64,000 nt of DNA from Siphonodentalium dalli (taxonomy: Eukaryota; Mollusca; Scaphopoda; Gadilida; Siphonodentaliidae), in assembly GCA_032622095.1 (NCBI GenBank), contig CP136064.1:195951948-196015947 (forward strand). Direction: 5' to 3'. Made by a program: the position numbers and the translations under genes. The notes under the pieces were generated by a model. The model made no database searches, was not told where the DNA came from, and saw only the letters and a list, made by a program, of their open reading frames with translations. Below are positions 21,117 through 62,526 of the stretch, in pieces. Each line of letters begins with the position of its first letter. Within the stretch, counting starts at the first letter, position 1.

Positions 21117-21188
21117 CACCCGGAATCCCAAGCCGGTCACCCACCCAAGGACTAACCGAGCTCGACGTTGCTTAATTTCGGTGATCAC
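21117..21188 (-). other. 5S rRNA-derived domain in LTR 3
   Basis: Reads CACCGAAATTAAGCAACGTC through GGGATTCCGGGTG. It ends exactly at the truncation point of LTR 3. It is neither a full 5S gene nor a standard tandem 5S array. Confidence 0.8.
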
Positions 21189-21284
21189 ACAAAGCGTCTA
21201 ACGACCGTGACCAAGAGATCTAGAGACTAGACCTCTCGATCAGAGAAGTCATCGGTCTTCCATATTTACAACACGACCGCTACA
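21117..21284 (-). repeat. TRIM LTR 3 (3' LTR, truncated), ~168 bp
   Basis: Starts TGTAGCGGTCGTG like the others and continues through the 5S-like core. Similarity stops at about 21117, immediately after the 5S end CCGGGTG, so the (CT)n part and the TGTTACA end are missing. The distal target-site duplication therefore cannot be read. Confidence 0.75.
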
Positions 21285-21388
21285 CTACTCCCCCCTCGTT
21301 CTTTTTGAGATTCACCTAATCTCACCCGGGTCCTCCCCCAGAGCGGCCGCATCATGACACAGACTCGGTGGAGCGGACGAGCCCCTAG

Positions 21389-21661
21389 TGTAACAGATCG
21401 AGAGAGAGGGAGAGAGAGAGACAGAGAGAGAGACAGAGAGAGACAGGGAGAGAGAGAAGTGCAACTATCGCACCGAAAGTTGGCAGCACCCGGAATCCCA
21501 AGCCGGTCACCCACCCAAGGACTAACCGAGCTCGACGTTGCTTCACTTCGGTGATCACACAAAGCGTCTAAGGACCGTGACCATGCAAGAGATCTGGACC
21601 TCTCGAGCAGAGAAGTCACCGGCCTTCAGCCGCCTTCTATATTTACAACGCGACCGCTACA
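21389..21661 (-). repeat. TRIM LTR 2 (middle), 273 bp
   Basis: Same organisation as LTR 1. It differs by substitutions, microsatellite length and a short indel in the CTTCAGCCGCC region. The 5S-like core is at 21483-21558 and the (CT)n tract at about 21401-21456. It serves as 3' LTR of one unit and 5' LTR of the next. Confidence 0.8.
21483..21558 (-). other. 5S rRNA-derived domain in LTR 2
   Basis: Same segment as in LTR 1 with CCGAAGTGAAGCAACGTC at box A and TTGGGTGGGTGACCGG at box C. It lies at the same distance from the LTR ends, so it is a fixed part of the element, not a separate 5S insertion. Confidence 0.85.
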
Positions 21662-21681
21662 CTATTCCCCCGTTCTTTTTG
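21662..21681 (-). promoter_or_regulatory. Polypurine tract of the TRIM
   Basis: Minus strand AAAAAGAACGGGGGAATAG directly abuts the TGTAGCGG start of LTR 2. The equivalent at 21285-21306 abuts LTR 3. Position and purine content fit the plus-strand primer of LTR elements. Confidence 0.65.
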
Positions 21682-21750
21682 AGATTCACCAAATCTCACC
21701 CGAGTCCTCCTCCAGAGCGGTCGCATCAGGACACAGACTCCGCTGTGCGA

Positions 21751-21768
21751 GGAGCGGACGAGACCCCA
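21751..21768 (-). promoter_or_regulatory. Primer-binding site of the TRIM (tRNA-Pro-like)
   Basis: One base after the 5' LTR end. Reads TGGGGTCTCGTCCGCTCC, with 13 of the first 14 bases as in the canonical retroviral tRNA-Pro site and a divergent last four. The second unit has the equivalent site at about 21370-21387 with a different single mismatch, so the consensus matches 14 of 14 over that stretch. The priming tRNA is inferred. Confidence 0.7.
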
Positions 21769-21769
21769 G

Positions 21770-22025
21770 TGTAACAGAACGAGAGAGAGAGAGAGACAGA
21801 GAGAGAGAGACAGAGAGAGAGAGAGAGAAGTGCAACTATCGCACCGAAAGTTGGCAGCACCCGGAATCCCAAGCCGGTCACCCATCCAAGGACTAACCGA
21901 GCTCGACGTTGCTTAATTTCGGTGATCAGACAAAGCGTCTGACGACCATGACCAGGATATCTAGAGACGAGACCTCTCGATCAGAGAAGTCATCGGTCTT
22001 CCATATTTACAACACGACCGCTACA
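21770..22025 (-). repeat. TRIM LTR 1 (5' LTR), 256 bp
   Basis: Starts TGTAGCGGTCGTGTTGTAAA and ends CTGTTACA on the minus strand. Order within: unique 5' segment with GAGACCTCT-type sequence, 5S-like core (21855-21930), AACTTTCGGTGCGATAGTTG, then a (CT)n tract (21780-21829 on plus) and the TGTTACA end. TG...CA ends are typical of LTRs. Confidence 0.8.
21855..21930 (-). other. 5S rRNA-derived domain in LTR 1
   Basis: The minus strand reads TGATCACCGAAATTAAGCAA, then CGTCGAGCTCGGTTAG, TCCTTGGATGGGTGACCGG and CTTGGGATTCCGGGTGCTG. This is the 3' two-thirds of metazoan 5S rRNA with few changes, including the internal control region: box A (about 21905-21919), intermediate element GGTTAG (21893-21898) and box C (21873-21889). 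The 5' third of 5S is not convincingly present, and no T-run terminator follows. Pol III activity is possible but unproven. Confidence 0.85.
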
Positions 22026-22706: not shown

Positions 22707-23193
22707 ACATCTAATCATGCCACCGTAGAGATGCATCTATAATAATCTATGGTTTCCTTGATGGCAATCGATGGCATGACTTGCCAGACCGAGCATATTC
22801 ATGTGTATAATTCTCATCTACTTTCCTATCTACTTCTCTACCTCCATCTCTGTCTTTCGTTGTCTTATTTATCTCCTGTTATCTTACTATAGTAGCTTAA
22901 GCAATTTGACAGTCCCGTTGAGGGATGAGGGTGTGATAGCACGGATTGATGATCATGTTTCTATATAAGGTATGAGCATTCACTATATTGTCCCTCTGCA
23001 GAACTGTCAAGCTGCCATGCTGTTATATTTATATATCTATATGTTTATATCAATACAAAATGAATGTCACACTCTATGTTGCTCTTTTGTATATGTGCTT
23101 ATCTCACCTGTCTACGTGCTATGCATCTATTAGCCATTAAAAAGTATCTATTTATCTATCTATATATCTATCTATTTTCAGTTGAGATCCCAC
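22707..23193. other. Intron of gene 1 (if the distal exon is real), no feature seen
   Basis: Begins after MITE B and ends at the donor of the 240-bp exon. Contains TATC/ATCT microsatellite-like sequence at about 23145-23175. No alternative last exon with the required phase (first two bases completing a Glu codon) was found here. Confidence 0.4.
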
Positions 23194-23433
23194 CTTCGAA
23201 ATTGACTTGTCCATCACCGTCTATGTCCGCCGCTTTAATCATATCATCCACCTCCTGATCCGTCACGTCCTCGCCCAATGAGCACATTGCCTTGAATAGT
23301 TCATCACGAGTTATCCGTCCATTTCCATCCTCGTCGAAGTGTTTGAAGGCTTGAATCATTTCACAATTTCCAACGTCCATTACCCTTCCTTCAATCATAC
23401 CCATAAACTCAACAAAATCGATCACACCATTGC
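23194..23433 (-). CDS. EF-hand gene 1, exon 4 (EF2 end, EF3, EF4)
   Basis: A 240-bp exon with acceptor TGGTCTTTGCAG and donor GTGGGATC. Together with the preceding exon it completes EF-loop 2 ([12 protein letters not shown]). It then encodes loop 3 ([12 protein letters not shown]) and most of loop 4 ([11 protein letters not shown], whose final Glu needs the next exon). All Ca2+-ligand positions 1, 3, 5 and 12 are acidic or Asn as in working loops. The spacing is that of calmodulin. Relative to vertebrate CALM genes this exon equals the 107- and 136-bp exons fused, minus one codon. A T2-like MITE begins 15 bp upstream of the acceptor. Confidence 0.92.
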
Positions 23434-23448
23434 CTGCAAAGACCAACA

Positions 23449-23806
23449 TTAAAGTGATGTGAAACACTCCAGTATGGTGATCAAATACAAATGGAGAAAT
23501 AATCTTGTTCAAAGTAGTATTTTTTACAAATAGTATATTCAAATATATTCAAATTGACATTATATATTAATTAAAGTGACTCTTGATGGCGAAATCATTT
23601 TCGCTATTTTATCACCGATAGATGCGTTCCGAATCGAGTAATAAATATGTATAATATTGAGCGTAGTTATGACGATGTTTTCTATGGACTGGTATGGTCG
23701 ATTTGCTTCAAATTTTCGACGATGTTACATTCCTACAGTTATCATAGCGCCTGAATACTAACTTATCACTTTCACGCACCCGAACGAGTACATAATATGT
23801 ATTTAA
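23449..23806. mobile_element. MITE family C (T2-like), copy abutting a splice acceptor
   Basis: TTAAAGTGATGTGAAACACT at 23449 and TTTAA at about 23802-23806 bound a 358-bp element matching 29021-29395 (TGGCGAAATCATTT, GGTATGGTCGATTTG, TTTCACGCACCCGAAC). Only 15 intronic bases separate its TTAA edge from exon 4 of gene 1, so the branch region of that intron lies in the element. Confidence 0.8.
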
Positions 23807-32224: not shown

Positions 32225-32795
32225 AAATATTCCAGCCCAATGAAAACAACTGTTGATATGCAATGTGGTCCACTCAAGCAGGGAGCAATCAACATAAATT
32301 ATGTCACAGTGTTAAGAGATATGGTGTTCAGCTTTAACTTGGTCATGAAGCCATGACCCAGAACTAATCTCAGCCCAATTTTTCATTGAACAACATGAAT
32401 GACATGAGAATTCTCAAATTTAGAAAATTATTTGTGGGTAGTTGTCTTTCTAAGTGAAAATAATCATCAAATTTCATGAATCAAGAAAATTTAAGTCTCC
32501 TCTCATGGTCTTCAGATATGATATCATGGATATATGATCTGCAATTTTGAAACAAATATAATTTACGGAAGTTCTTGGTACCTGAATACGGTAAAAAAAT
32601 TAATATTTTTCATGTCATAAAAGTGAAGTAAATGAGTTTATAATAACTAATTGTTCGATGGTTCTTAAATATTGTATCACAATAATCGCTTGTACCAAAT
32701 TTCACAAATAAATTCCTGACAGATTTTGAGAAAATCTATTTAGAAATACCAGGAAATTTTGGCCAAACGTGCATCTGACCCTTAACGTAATTATT
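32225..32795. repeat. Interspersed repeat E, continuous copy
   Basis: TTCCAGCCCAATG, GTTGATATGCAATG, CACTCAAGCAGGGAGCAA, TAAGAGATATGGTG and TCTCAGCCCAATTT are followed 190 bp later by GATGGTTCTTAAATATTG, AATCGCTTGTACCAAATTTC and AAACGTGCATCTGACCC. This is the reference for the disrupted copy at 20560-22183. Confidence 0.6.
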
Positions 32796-41465: not shown

Positions 41466-41576
41466 AATACACTAACCCTAACTCTAACCCTAACCCTAGC
41501 ACTAACCCCAGCCCTAACCCTAGCCCTAACCCAAACCCTAGCGCTAATCCTAGCCCTGACCCTAACCCTAACCCAT
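41466..41576. repeat. Degenerate interstitial telomere-type repeat (CCCTAA)n
   Basis: About 18 hexamers in the CCCTAA register with variants such as CTAACT, CTAGCC, CTAGCA and CCCAAA. This is the C-rich strand on plus, so TTAGGG reads on minus. Degeneracy and location inside an intron indicate an old interstitial array, not a chromosome end. Confidence 0.9.
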
Positions 41577-51407: not shown

Positions 51408-52121
51408 CTGTAAAGGAGAATAAGCTTTCAGAAACTTCGCAACAGTATTTATTCCACGAATAATATAACAATAATAAGTTCAACAATAAGTTTATGTTCA
51501 TCATGGACCGGATACGACGTCAGGCTTACGTTAGTCGTTTCCGGGAATCGTTTTATATCCACCACACTTTGCGAGATCGTGGTTATCTTCTTAACCTGTC
51601 GTACGATATACTATTTGAATGTCGTTTAGTGTGAGCCAAGCTTGGGCGTGTGACACCTCTTTTCTGGGACTCTTGTCACTTGAAGTGGTACGCAGGGTTT
51701 ATATACAGTCATGTTAACTGGAACACAACAGAAATGATGGAACGCAGCTTTTATATATCATACATTGTTCAAATTTTTACTATTTCTTAGATCAAATGAC
51801 AAATTCTGATGTAATTCAGTCCCATACAACTGTATTTACTAAATGTATAAGGACATAACTTCAGCAAATGTTAGAATATTATCGTGAAATTAAAATTTAC
51901 TGGATCCTATTCTTATCTGGTATACACAGGATTCGCCGCTTTTTCACCTGGTATTCTGGATTAAGGAGGTATATGGGCCGGGTGACATCCTCACATTTAT
52001 TCGTGTGAAGACGTCAATTTGTGGTGGAGATCAGTCCCTTGTATACTTCTTATCACCAAAGGTCGAGCATCTTTCACAACCGAAGAGAATGATCTCTCCA
52101 GCAACATACATCTATGCTCAC

Positions 52122-52361
52122 CTTCGAAGCTGACTTCTCCGTCACCATCCGAGTCGGCCGCTAGTATCATGTTCCTGATGTCGTCTGGTGTGACATCCGA
52201 ACCGAGGTTTGTCATGGCTATGGATAGTTCTTCAAACGTTACAGATCCGTTGTTGTCCTTGTCGAACTCACGAAAGGCTATCCTCATCTCCTCTTCTTCT
52301 ACGTCCCGTATTTTTCGACCCATCATTGAGAGAAACTCGGGGAAATCGATTTTGCCATTTT
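52122..52361 (-). CDS. EF-hand gene 2, exon for EF2 end, EF3, EF4
   Basis: A 240-bp exon, acceptor TCTATTGGCAG, donor GTGAGCATAG, phase 1 at both ends like its paralogue at 23194-23433. Loops: [12 protein letters not shown] (completed from the upstream exon), [12 protein letters not shown] and [11 protein letters not shown] plus E from the last exon. All four ligand-bearing positions are retained. Between loops it has [14 protein letters not shown], closer to calmodulin than gene 1. A MITE D copy begins 25 bp upstream of the acceptor. Confidence 0.94.
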
Positions 52362-52386
52362 CTGCCAATAGAATTTTAACTAAACG

Positions 52387-54599: not shown

Positions 54600-57290
54600 T
54601 TAATAGGTTAATATTGGTAGTATCATTTGATCGAAAAGTTTCAATGAACATTTGATTGATAAGTTATTTCTTCTGCTCATCTTGATAAGCTCATACATAG
54701 CTGTAACAGCTTTATTTGAAGCATATTTTTTCATCGCTTTGAAAGACCCTGTTCTACCGAAAAGGACGCCGAGATAATTGAATGTATCAACGTAGTCTAA
54801 GGCAATACCTAGGTACCGTATCATTGGATAGTTCTTCGGTTTCCTTTTTGCGAAACATACAAGTTTGGGTTTTGGGATGTTTACTTTCAGTTTCAAAATG
54901 TCACAATAATCGGAAAATAGATCAAGTGAATACTGTAAATCTTGTGGTGATTCTGACAACAAAACTGTGTCGTCGGCATAAAGGATTATAAATAATTTCA
55001 AAAAAACTCCGAGTTGCTCAAGATCCTGAGATGCATCAGTAAGACCCTCCACATTTGCGTCAGAGAGAAAACATTCGAGATCGTTAACATACAGCGAGAA
55101 TAAAAATGTCGAGAGGTTTACCCCTTGTCTCACTCCGACATTAGACAAAAAAGTTCCGGACACCTGGCCGTTTAAGACCACTTTGGATTTAATCCCGCGG
55201 TAAATATTTGTAATAATATTTAGCATCTTGCAATTAATTCCAGATATTCTCATTTTATACCATAGACCTTCCCTCCACACGGAATCGAAAGCTTTTTCCT
55301 GGTCAACAAAAGCGCAATATAAACGTTTTTTGTAGTGTAATCGTGCTAAATCAATCAAAGAATTGAGGAAAAATAGATTGTCGGTTGTAGAATATCCTGT
55401 TCTGAATCCACTCTGAAATTTTGAGATCAAATTTCCTGACTGAGAAAAAGAATTAAGCCTGAGATTAAGAACAGAGGTAGAGGTAAATAGCTTCCCAAAG
55501 CAACAAAGAATAGTTGTGCCACGATAATTCCCCGGTTCACGTTTTGACCCTTTTTTCTTATATATCGGGATTATATTACCCACCAACCAACTATCAGGCA
55601 CAAAACCAGAGTCAAATATTAGATTAAAAAGTTTTACATAGATTGGCATCATAATATCCACTGAACTTTTCAAATATTCATTTCTGATAAGATCATCGGA
55701 AGTGGCTTTATTATTTTTCAGGTTAGCTATACAGTTTCTTATTTCATCTTCGGTAATTTTTGTATTTAGTTCATATTCAACATCAATATTGATTTCCGGT
55801 ACTAAGAGCGGAATCTCAGTATTGTTATTCTCACCACGATTTAATTCTTGAAAATGACTATAAAGAGCGTCGAGAGATATATTTTTGTCCACATTCCGGT
55901 TATTTTCCTTTCGGAGTAATCTCCAGAATTGTCTGGAATCATTGTGACTCAAAAGTGTCATTTTCTCGCGTATCCGCGTCTTGTGTTGTTTTATAGCGGT
56001 GTTCAACGATCGCTTATAAGCCTTTTCTGCGTTTTTCAAATGATTTTTATTTGCATTAGAGGGGTTGTGCTTACACCATCGCTTTGCCTTCCTATATTGT
56101 GTACGACTTTCTCTGCAATTTTTGTTAAACCAGGGGTTATTTATTTTACTTCCAGTTTGGTCATGAATGTTGGACTTTCGCGTACCGAACGTTTCCCGAG
56201 CAGCGACAGTGAGCGTATCAGATATCATTTCTACAACATTGTTTACTTTGTTATGATCGATCGTACTTTCGTCTAAGTCTCTTAAAATAATGGATATTTC
56301 TTCCACATTGCTTCTGTTGATGTTTCTCAAATAAGTATTTATTTCGCTCGGGTCCCAGTTACGTGGTGCTGCAGTATTCTGATTATTTTCTGATACCGTG
56401 CTAGTAAAATATTGAGGTGATATTCGTTTTCCCAAAACAAGTTTAAGATATATTGGTGAGTGCACGTCCGAAAAAAGGGAATTAAATTTATGTACCTCAA
56501 ATCCTCCAATAAATTTGGCTGCAGAGTTCGAGCTTAATACATAATCGACAACAGATAACCCTCGACATATAAATTCACCGACCCCTTTATCCACACCGAC
56601 CCTACCATTGACGACAAACAGACCGTTTGATTTACATAGTTCTAATAATGATCTTCCAAAACTATTAAGTTTGTTGTCAAGACTATACATCTCTATTGGG
56701 AACCCATTTTCGATCAGTGTAGTTTCAGTATTATCATTGAACTCATATGTTGTTTCAAACGGGTTTAGATCAGTATCTGTATAATTCAAATCACTAACAG
56801 TTGACGTACGTGCATTAAAATCTCCAACGAGATATACATTTTTGAACTCACTAGAGATACTGAGATATTCACAGAGCAACTGCGTGTATGGATCATTTAT
56901 CGAGTACGAGGTGGGATATAAACAATGCCTATTATGAGATCATCAGCTATATTAGCTGCTCGGTGATTGATTTTCAGCCACAATATATATTTACAATCTG
57001 TTTTGATGGTGTCGATAGCCCCACCCAAACCTTGTTTATATCCCACCACGATTCCACCCGACTTTCGGTTTGAAAATTTAGTGCGGTTTTTCATAATAAA
57101 ATCATAACCATGAAGTACGGGTGTATCACAATCATCTGTTTTGGATTCTTGTATACAAATAAAATCGTAATTGCTACAGAGTTCCTGAAATTATGGATAT
57201 TTAAGCCTCGTCATCAACCCACACACATTGATCGACAGAACATTTAAAATGCTGAAATTTGAGTAATAGTTAGTATTGTCTCTCTCTATG
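54600..57290 (-). pseudogene. LINE ORF2 (endonuclease plus reverse transcriptase), broken and 3'-truncated
   Basis: The endonuclease part begins about 57290 with LSINVCGL, CIQESKTD and later YLVGDFNARTS, the usual APE-type blocks. An in-frame TAA at 57191-57193 and a frameshift near 56893 break it. The RT part runs continuously from about 56879: IPIYKKKGSKREPGNYRGT, SGFRTGYST, FVDQEKAFDSVW, GVRQGVNLSTFLFSLYVND and LYADDTVLL. RQGVNLST deviates from the usual RQG(D/E)NLSP. The frame ends at LPILTY with a stop, where relatives continue with a GxEVW block, so the 3' end is missing. The RT resembles the jockey/CR1-related group common in marine invertebrates; clade not fixed. Confidence 0.88.
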
Positions 57291-57331
57291 TGAGGTTTTG
57301 AGTCTGGCACTACATGATCTCCTGGCTGATC

Positions 57332-58342
57332 CTATGTCGGTGATGGCCCTGTACGTCCGCGTTTCGACTGGCGTCTACCATCTGACATTGGTGTATGAAG
57401 ATTTTGCTGTTGTTGTTGTTGTTGTGGTGGTTTCGGTCTATGGAGAACCCCATCAATATATAGACTGTCACGAACCATTTTGACTTTCTTGCCCTGTTGT
57501 CGGGCATCTCTCTTAACGGGGTATAACTCTCGTCTACGCTCCTCGATCTCTTTAGGAAATTGTTCACTAATTCTGTAAGGCTTAGATTTCAGCATGCTTA
57601 CGCACGATAACACTCGGGTGAACTCTTTCCTAAAGATGAATCGCGCAATTATTGGTCTATATCCGTGGTTCACGTTGGCATCCGCTGGTTCCGCCGTGGC
57701 AGCATCAGTTTTGAATTTGCCCATTCTATGCACATTTCCTATCTTGAATTCTGCTGCGTTATTAATTATGAGTTTCTCCTTCAGGAATGTTTTCAATACT
57801 TCTTCACAATCTTCATAGGGATTTTCATCTATTCCACTGAAGACTAAATTATTGTTCATCGACCTACACCTGAGATCTAGCACAGAATCATTCAGTTCAG
57901 CATTATTATCAGTAAGCTGCTGGATCTGTGACGTTTTGGAATTATTGGATATTTGCAGATCATGCATTTCGGCTTGCATCCTGGTCATTCGTGACTCCAG
58001 GTCATTGACAGTTTTCCCTAATGAATCCCTTGACGATTTAAGGTCGTCGATCGCCTTATCTGAAGACTGCCCAGTTGTCTCAACTGCAGAACATCTCTGA
58101 TCGATCTCAACGACCTTTTGACCTATCGACGTTACATCAGTTGCCAGCTTACCAACGGATTGAGCCAATGTATCATAATTTTTAACACTGTCTTCTATTG
58201 ATGACAGTCGAGAATCCATCCGTCGGAGAACGTCCATACATGTAAGTGTAATCGACTCAGCGTTGTTGGCATCGGTGACACTCAAACCGTCGATCGCGTG
58301 ACGACTATTTTCCATTATGGATACAGTTTCACCTAGAGACAT
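57332..58342 (-). CDS. LINE ORF1, L1-type RNA-binding protein, intact frame
   Basis: A 336-codon frame with no internal stop. A long coiled coil (about residues 30-160, with SVGKLATDVTSIGQKVVEID-type heptads) precedes an RRM-like start SMNNNLVFSGI (about 185-195), a C-terminal region with KPYRISEQFPKEIEERRREL, and a basic tail with a seven-Gln run (the GTT-rich tract near 57405-57425). This is the domain order of L1-like (Transposase_22) ORF1 proteins, which bind RNA as trimers. It lies just upstream of ORF2 on the same strand, with about 40 bp between them. Confidence 0.85.
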   Translation of the reverse strand: MSLGETVSIMENSRHAIDGLSVTDANNAESITLTCMDVLRRMDSRLSSIEDSVKNYDTLAQSVGKLATDVTSIGQKVVEIDQRCSAVETTGQSSDKAIDDLKSSRDSLGKTVNDLESRMTRMQAEMHDLQISNNSKTSQIQQLTDNNAELNDSVLDLRCRSMNNNLVFSGIDENPYEDCEEVLKTFLKEKLIINNAAEFKIGNVHRMGKFKTDAATAEPADANVNHGYRPIIARFIFRKEFTRVLSCVSMLKSKPYRISEQFPKEIEERRRELYPVKRDARQQGKKVKMVRDSLYIDGVLHRPKPPQQQQQQQNLHTPMSDGRRQSKRGRTGPSPT

Positions 58343-58897
58343 AGCTATTCAATGCGTCGCAATGTCTCGAAATATATGTCAACGTGTACTGGTGTAAACA
58401 AACGCAAAGTTCAGAAGTAAGTCACTGACCATATACCATATCGTGTCGGCTGAACGGTAATCAAGACGCAGGCTGATGATTGGTGTTCAGTCTTCCTTCA
58501 CCTTTAGATACTGCATACCAATAATAATTGGCGTTATACTCATCCGTGACGGTGTGTACGCACTGAAGGTCAGTGTGGTATCTCATTGGAAGTCCTCGCT
58601 ATGAATAATAATAAGGCAATAACGACATCGTATATTGACCTGTGATTGGTGGGAAATCTGCATGAATATGTATGATGCGTCGAATTTCGAAATAAGATGA
58701 CATTGGCTGACAAATTTCAGACCGAAATACTCACAAACTGGCAGAATAGTCCATATATTTCCAACAACGAGAATAGCCAGAATAGTTAGCTAATAGGATG
58801 TGCGCGGACCATTATCCTTTACTAAAACAGGAACAACACATATTTAGGAAAATATCACCACCTGTCAGAGCGTCAACCTGCTTGAAACAACTCCTAT
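58343..58897 (-). other. Probable LINE 5' region, boundary unknown
   Basis: Sequence upstream of ORF1 on the minus strand. It probably includes the element's 5' UTR. No flanking target duplication could be located because the 3' end of the LINE is missing. Confidence 0.3.
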
Positions 58898-61471: not shown

Positions 61472-62526
61472 ATCTATGGAGCCCCGGAGGTGACATCCGA
61501 ATTTTTTATTTTAAGTCGTGGCCACGAGAATAAAGTCGTGGCCACGAGAATATGAAGTCGTGGCCACGAGCATATGAAGTCGTGGCCACGAGAATATGAA
61601 GTCGTGGCCACGAGACTATGAAGTCGTGGCCACGAGAATAAGGTCGTGGCCACGAGAATAAAGTCGTGGCCACGAGAATAGAGTCGTGGGCACGAGAATA
61701 ATGTCGTGGCCACGAGAATAAAGTCGTGGCCACGAGCATGAAGTCGTGGCCACGAGAATTATGTCGTGGGCACGAGAATATGGAGTCGTGGCCACGAGAA
61801 TAATGTCGTGGCCACGAGAATATGGTCGTGGCCACGAGAATATAGTCGTGGCCACGAGAATATGAAGTCGTGGCCACGAGAATATGAAGTCGTGGCCACG
61901 AGACTATGAAGTCGTGGCCACGAGAATAAGGTCGTGGCCACGAGAATAAAGTCGTGGCCACGAGAATAGAGTCGTGGGCACGAGAATAATGTCGTGGCCA
62001 CGAGAATAAAGTCGTGGCCACGAGCATGAAGTCGTGGCCACGAGAATAATGTCGTGGGCACGAGAATATGGAGTCGTGGCCACGAGAATAATGTCGTGGC
62101 CACGAGAATATGGTCGTGGCCACGAGAATATAGTCGTGGCCACGAGAATATGAAGTCGTGGCCACGAGAATATGAAGTCGTGGCCACGACTTTATTCTCG
62201 TGGCCACGACCATATTCTCGTGGCCACGACTTCGTTGTCTCGTGGCCACGACTTCATATTCTCGTGGCCACGACTTCATATTCTCGTGGCCACGACTATA
62301 TTCTCGTGGCCACGACATTATTCTCGTGCCCACGACTTTATTCTCGTGGCCACGACTTTATTCTCGTGCCCACGACTTCGTAGTCTCGTGGCCACGACCT
62401 CATATTCTCGTGGCCACGACTTGATATGCTCGTGGCCACGACTTCATATTCTCGTGGCCACGACTTTATTCTCGTGGCCACGACTTAAAAAAAAAATTCG
62501 GATGTCACCTCCGGGGCTCCATAGAT
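61472..62526. mobile_element. Foldback element built from a CGTGGCCACG minisatellite
   Basis: Unique ends ATCTATGGAGCCCCGGAGG, TGACATCCGAATTTTTTA are exactly inverted at the right (TCGGATGTCACCTCCGGGG, CTCCATAGAT). Inside, the left arm (about 61513-62187) is some 33 units of GTCGTGGCCACGAGAATA with 0-5 extra bases; the right arm (about 62188-62486) is some 15 units in inverse orientation. A TA flanks TGGAGCCCC on both sides, a possible TA target duplication. Each unit carries the self-complementary core CGTGGCCACG. Long open frames over it (up to 275 codons, SWPRLYSRGHD repeats) are by-products. Confidence 0.88.
61613..62188. repeat. Higher-order duplication (~288 bp) in the foldback left arm
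   Basis: The irregular unit order (AGACTATGAAG, AGAATAAGG, AGAATAGAGTCGTGGGC, AGCATGAAG, TATGGAG) is repeated with period about 288 bp: AGACTATG at 61613 recurs at 61901. This accounts for the left arm being about twice as long as the right. Confidence 0.82.

Follow-up and report, generated by a model that had tools for sequence, protein, structure and literature searches.

Is the repeat at positions 21117-22025 of the window, by which we mean the whole 64,000-nucleotide stretch of Siphonodentalium dalli DNA analysed here, a mobile element that carries part of the 5S rRNA gene in its long terminal repeats (LTRs), or is it a piece of ordinary 5S rDNA? An earlier note on this DNA had favoured the first reading, likening the locus to the Cassandra TRIMs of plants. 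We address the question from the architecture of the window copy, from its relatives across the genome and in the literature, and from what its sequence suggests about transcription and mobilisation.

Architecture of the window copy

Tandem Repeats Finder, run on the full 64-kb window, delimits an array at exactly 21117-22025, with a period of 371 and 2.5 copies. Read on the minus strand, on which all of the following features lie, this array has the order LTR-internal-LTR-internal-LTR. The 5'-most LTR (LTR1, 21770..22025, 256 bp) is complete, running from TGTAGCGG to TGTTACA. It carries a TATA-like motif (TAAATATG, 22002..22009), with the equivalent of 5S +1 lying about 30 bp downstream of it, and a segment derived from 5S nt 37-113 that includes box A, the intermediate element (IE) and box C (21855..21931). 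LTR2 (21389..21661, 273 bp) is likewise complete, is the most diverged of the three, and holds 5S nt 37-113 at 21484..21560. LTR3 (21117..21284, 168 bp) is truncated inside its 5S segment (21117..21190, 5S nt 37-110) and has neither the TC run nor the TGTTACA end. The three tandem LTRs of about 256-273 bp described in the earlier note are, therefore, two full LTRs of 256 and 273 bp and a third that is incomplete.

Between the LTRs lie internal domains of 108 bp (21662..21769) and 104 bp (21285..21388), close to the 105 bp first proposed. One base past LTR1 and LTR2, respectively, stand the 14-mers TGGGGTCTCGTCCG (21755..21768) and TAGGGGCTCGTCCG (21374..21387), each a primer binding site (PBS)-like sequence of tRNA-Pro type with 13/14 matches, given the tRNA-Pro 3' end that we assume for this assignment. 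A polypurine tract (PPT) directly precedes LTR2 (21662..21680) and another precedes LTR3 (21285..21306), and both kinds of site are found where the earlier note had placed them. Two stop-to-stop frames run across the LTR-internal borders (119 aa, minus strand, 21266-21625; 113 aa, plus strand, 21555-21896), and we take these as chance.

For the window LTRs, the reference was human 5S, with box A, IE and box C at their usual positions. Aligned in sense and without gaps, LTR1, LTR2 and LTR3 are identical to it at 62/77 (nt 37-113), 60/77 (nt 37-113) and 57/74 (nt 37-110) positions. Their Smith-Waterman scores of 79, 69 and 63 lie far above the best of 500 dinucleotide shuffles each (30, 31 and 24), and antisense scores are 13-17. 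Box A is matched at 11/15 positions in all three LTRs, IE at 4/6 and box C at 14-15/18, and the presence of all three promoter elements in each LTR, as first claimed, is thereby borne out. Rfam 5S matches in the window copies reach 20.5-26.6 bits, the gathering score being 38, and at the gathering threshold no 5S was found in the window copy. Because of these weak scores, we regard the 5S sequence in the window copies as partial and non-canonical.

Elsewhere, the window contains tandem repeats of a ~20-bp unit (GTCGTGGCCACGAGAATAT-like), which also form a large inverted repeat (61513-62486), an interstitial telomere-like (CTAACC)n tract (41472-41575) and, on the minus strand, two calmodulin-like EF-hand pieces (23168-23548 and 51997-52386). 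A probable non-LTR retrotransposon occupies 54600-58348 on the minus strand, with a reverse transcriptase frame (RVT_1, E 1.7e-29) preceded by a frame whose matches are of coiled-coil type. Among the matches listed for the protein of this LINE, an organism is named for 9/120, namely four bivalves, four metagenome-assembled genomes (MAGs) of lucinid-clam symbionts and one Sedimenticola MAG; we take lucinid clams to be the hosts of Thiodiazotropha.

A dispersed TRIM family and its 5S-derived segment

Our search of the genome (2.23 Gb, 9 contigs) returned at least 56 matches to the element, and every one of the 9 contigs has some; of 2789 first-look candidates, 40 were scored. Forty loci (L001-L040) were examined, a sample that is biased, as it was drawn from a search with the tandem query. 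The usual copy consists of a ~213-bp LTR, a ~100-bp internal part and a second ~213-bp LTR, for about 525 bp overall. Among 20 two-LTR copies, 15 measure 508-607 bp and the other five 472-744 bp, all within the TRIM limit of <1000 bp, and the ends are TG...CA.

Exact 4-bp target site duplications (TSDs) flank 16 of the 23 loci whose outer ends could both be placed, the remaining 17 of the 40 having been set aside; L035, wrongly delimited, and L012, with a doubtful 3' end, are counted here as misses. The 16 include two pairs, L009/L013 and L036/L038, with common flanks that look like duplicated DNA, which leaves 14 independent cases. For the first 30 loci, 19 of them two-ended, 4-bp duplications occur in 13 and 5-bp duplications in none, whereas chance predicts 1.4 of 19 and the maximum in 20,000 random re-pairings of flanks was 7. 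The TRIM reading had been staked in the earlier note on dispersed copies with target duplications, as opposed to tandem parts of the true 5S rDNA cluster, and copies of precisely this kind were found.

The exact junction of LTR end and PBS has 140 matches in the genome, and a reversed-pattern control has none. Four of these matches were opened: L051, L052 and L054 are TRIM copies, and the fourth is L053, so the 140 mix the TRIM with other elements. The three TRIM copies are only 76-81% similar to the reference LTR, and more distant subfamilies therefore exist. A TSD was set by script in 0/3 of these copies, their ends being poorly set, and by eye L054 has CATG on both sides. The PBS matches the tRNA-Pro complement at 14/14 positions in 22 of 45 sites, at >=12/14 in 44/45 and at 18/18 in two (both in L005), counts that favour matches because the sites had been selected for resembling that junction. 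Pattern scans of the viral contigs and genome contigs collections gave 0 matches.

The true 5S genes that were scored lie elsewhere. There are at least 47 of them, at 104-118 bits (95,474 first-look candidates), and none stands at a TRIM place; they are located on contig C2 at ~177.89 and 200.2-200.35 Mb, on C9 at 133.54-133.60 and 179.08 Mb, and on C6 at 231.75-231.85 Mb. The genome has several types of true 5S gene, with differing spacers and spacings (~193 bp on C2, ~1.36 kb on C9). Ten 5S loci compared with the element have the 5S core alone in common with it, and no spacer. Host 5S nt 1-40, used as a query, found all 10 of 10 5S loci and, across the 40 TRIM loci, one 11-letter match (L006, E 0.75). 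A non-mobile, degenerate 5S rDNA array or 5S-derived satellite, as the head-to-tail 371-bp units of the window copy with a 5S part in each might suggest, is thus scarcely credible for the family, being ruled out by dispersal over 9 contigs, 4-bp TSDs, PBS and PPT, and by the absence of a full, clustered gene of ~120 nt with a shared spacer.

SINE3 elements are moved by LINEs and are not known to have LTRs, a PBS or a PPT. Like the present family, they carry a 5S-derived promoter segment, as described for SINE3 families in the accessible portion of Kojima (2024; PMC10886601), and a 5S-headed SINE mobilised by a LINE could account for that one feature. It is, nevertheless, a very improbable identity for the family, ruled out by direct terminal repeats, PBS, PPT and 4-bp TSDs. 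A SINE3 may instead have brought the 5S piece into the LTR, as the same portion of that paper proposes for Ajax (PMC10886601). Given the dispersal, the 4-bp TSDs and the location of the 47 scored 5S genes elsewhere, with no spacer shared by the ten compared, we conclude that the element is a dispersed TRIM: the family has partial 5S sequence in its LTRs, a tRNA-Pro-type PBS and a PPT, and it includes tandem derivatives.

The window copy is one such derivative, and its form suggests a recombination that placed a second unit within the internal domain of an existing copy. We infer this because LTR1 and LTR3 (95.8% identity) are closer to one another than either is to LTR2 (87.2% for LTR1-LTR2, 89.7% for LTR2-LTR3); unequal crossing-over between the LTRs of a single copy would not be expected to yield such a pattern. 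The 3' end of the tandem would have been lost later, and with that end missing the window copy has no target duplication. In an empty-site test, the flanks of the window copy matched 32227-32380 and 32657-32736 of the window, and the alignment at the gap was too unclean for an empty site to be called. Two or more internal parts are present in 8/30 loci (L001-L006, L016 and L023), the query itself being tandem. Cassandra, too, has been found as short arrays of about three LTRs, according to the part of that study available (PMC7215508).

What the LTRs have retained of the 5S gene is best seen in the well-kept copy L008, in which LTR positions 93-165 are identical to host 5S genes (L041-L044) at 69/73 positions, the first 53 letters being unchanged; the LTRs of L009 reach at best 92-93% over 69-73 bases. 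Rfam recognised 5S in 5/14 loci tested from the first 30, at 25.7-32.2 bits, every score being below the gathering value of 38. In L008, 212 nt made up of 26 internal bases plus the first 186 of the 3' LTR fold no more stably than shuffles (z -0.87), and together with the weak Rfam scores this leaves the suggestion of a 5S-like RNA structure unsupported. With 5S nt 1-40 missing, Rfam scores below gathering and an unremarkable fold, the segment is, judged by its sequence, the 5S promoter core and not a 5S gene. Five loci (L033, L034, L036, L038 and L040) lack part or all of the 5S region in the 5' LTR and keep it in the 3' LTR, and L037 and L039 are without the start of the 5' LTR as well as part or all of its 5S region; we read the gaps in the 5' LTRs of L033, L034 and L036-L040 as probable later deletions.

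Relatives of the family

The earlier note knew of no widely described animal counterpart, a view overtaken by Ajax (Ajax-1_NGe and Ajax-1_LiLo), a TRIM already published from two nemerteans and placed in TRIMp3 together with Cassandra and Helenus (Kojima, 2024; PMC10886601, in the part available). The hallmark of TRIMp3, a Pol III promoter sequence derived from a small-RNA gene and situated in the LTR, is present here by sequence, as the 69/73 match of L008 to host 5S indicates. Since Ajax came first, the present family is less surprising than it would otherwise be.

The resemblance to Ajax is close. Both are animal TRIMs with PBS and PPT and with a partial 5S in the LTR that comprises box A, IE and box C only, and the predicted fold of Ajax is unlike that of 5S rRNA, as it is here. 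The two differ in target duplication (5 bp in Ajax, 4 bp here), primer (tRNA-Leu in Ajax, tRNA-Pro type here) and length (421-434 bp in Ajax, ~525 bp here), as far as the accessible description of Ajax extends (PMC10886601). Their common design could reflect common descent, the family being a branch of Ajax with no separate origin, but we consider this improbable in view of those same differences in TSD, PBS and length, which set the family apart from Ajax as described. It is probably a further TRIM of the Cassandra/Ajax design with an origin of its own. Kojima regards the origins of Cassandra and Ajax as independent (PMC10886601, same portion).

Cassandra's design was said to be matched exactly. 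The match is good in that both are TRIMs with a 5S-derived promoter in the LTR, Cassandra being without a coding region (PMC10853983, PMC7215508); it fails at the primer, which is tRNA-Met in Cassandra, a plant element, and of tRNA-Pro type here (PMC10853983; both papers within the parts available). Animal Helenus elements have 4-bp TSDs, and some bivalve families use tRNA-Pro, two features shared with the present family, but the small-RNA part of the Helenus LTR is tRNA-derived and not 5S. For LTR-11_DR, tandem arrays have been reported, and Gypsy-13_CGi also uses tRNA-Pro (these points from the available portion of PMC10886601). Another molluscan TRIM, the biv-TRIM of bivalves, has no unambiguous PBS, and the accessible portion of its account describes no 5S promoter (PMC6934838).

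Among open-access papers, judged by title and the start of the abstract, we found no animal TRIM with 5S in its LTR other than Ajax, and no report of the combination of a 5S LTR, a 4-bp TSD and a tRNA-Pro primer. The single pieces of that combination are already known, since animal Helenus has the 4-bp TSD and some bivalve families have the tRNA-Pro primer.

Transcription and a candidate partner

By alignment, position 53 of the LTR corresponds to 5S +1. The TATA-like box, TAAATATA, occupies LTR positions 17-24, 29-36 bp upstream of that point, and is exact in 62/73 near-complete LTRs. A T4 run is present in 13/73 LTRs, and neither a T4 run nor AATAAA/ATTAAA was seen in any of six elements examined (6/6). 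The 5S part is conserved among copies at 0.92, compared with 0.90-0.92 for the LTR upstream of it, and thus shows no added conservation.

These features suggest a model in which TFIIIA and TFIIIC would bind the 5S part of the LTR and Pol III would start near LTR position 53, ~30 bp downstream of the TATA-like box. The RNA would extend past the PBS and the internal domain, enter the 3' LTR and, the element being mostly without a T4 stop, would end at a flanking T run. tRNA-Pro would then prime reverse transcription, and an LTR element encoding gag/pol, with the same LTR end and a tRNA-Pro PBS, would package, reverse-transcribe and integrate the TRIM RNA; L053 is the candidate for this role. Taken as a whole, we consider it likely that the family is a non-autonomous TRIM with a captured internal control region (5S nt ~41-113), a putative Pol III start and partner-driven mobilisation, of which the window holds a tandem copy.

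The use of Pol III by the element is read here from promoter sequence, and several observations count against it: the TATA-like box would suit Pol II too, the 5S part has no extra conservation, and the six elements have no terminator. Perhaps, then, Pol II transcribes the element, starting from the TATA-like box as in ordinary TRIMs, and the 5S piece captured in the LTR is a passenger or an enhancer. The frequency of the box and the unexceptional conservation of the 5S part would both fit, and Cassandra-related TRIMs of Asteraceae are described, in the part of the report available, as having TATA boxes and no 5S (PMC10853983). We nevertheless judge Pol II transcription unlikely. What the LTRs have kept is the promoter core of 5S, in sense, with its +1 equivalent ~30 bp past the box, and the six elements are without AATAAA/ATTAAA. 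Host 5S genes, moreover, are AT-rich near -30 when inspected by eye, so the TATA-like box may serve Pol III too.

The proposed mobilisation through Pol III transcripts and a partner element leads back to L053. This locus (L053:1500-2771) has an LTR end ...CCTGTTACA, with the TGTTACA of the TRIM, a C, the full 18-nt tRNA-Pro PBS TGGGGGCTCGTCCGGGAT and then two stop-to-stop frames, one of 196 aa and one of 224 aa. Two PBS sites of the TRIM locus L005 likewise have all 18 nt of this PBS. Against Pfam, the 224-aa frame gave Retrotrans_gag at E 0.0061 (below the cut-off), LRR_14 at E 0.022 and PNMA at E 0.054, and the 196-aa frame gave no match. Neither the TRIM LTR, including its 5S part, nor the internal part matches L053. 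We put L053 forward as a candidate autonomous partner, and as a lead only, because it is a single locus with a weak domain match. For Cassandra, there is no indication of an autonomous partner, according to the accessible portion of Kojima (2024; PMC10886601).

It is tempting to go one step further and to suppose that this is a separately evolved animal 5S-LTR element, after Cassandra and Ajax, which has joined a TATA-like box to the 5S internal promoter and depends on an L053-type retrotransposon for its machinery, a proposal that we offer tentatively and that may well prove wrong in one part or another. If miniature LTR elements have indeed captured 5S promoters repeatedly and independently, a Pol III promoter would appear to be favoured for LTR retrotransposons that have no genes of their own. 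If, in addition, the partner element resides in the same genome, trans-mobilisation would become testable. The copies also scatter partial 5S sequences across the genome.
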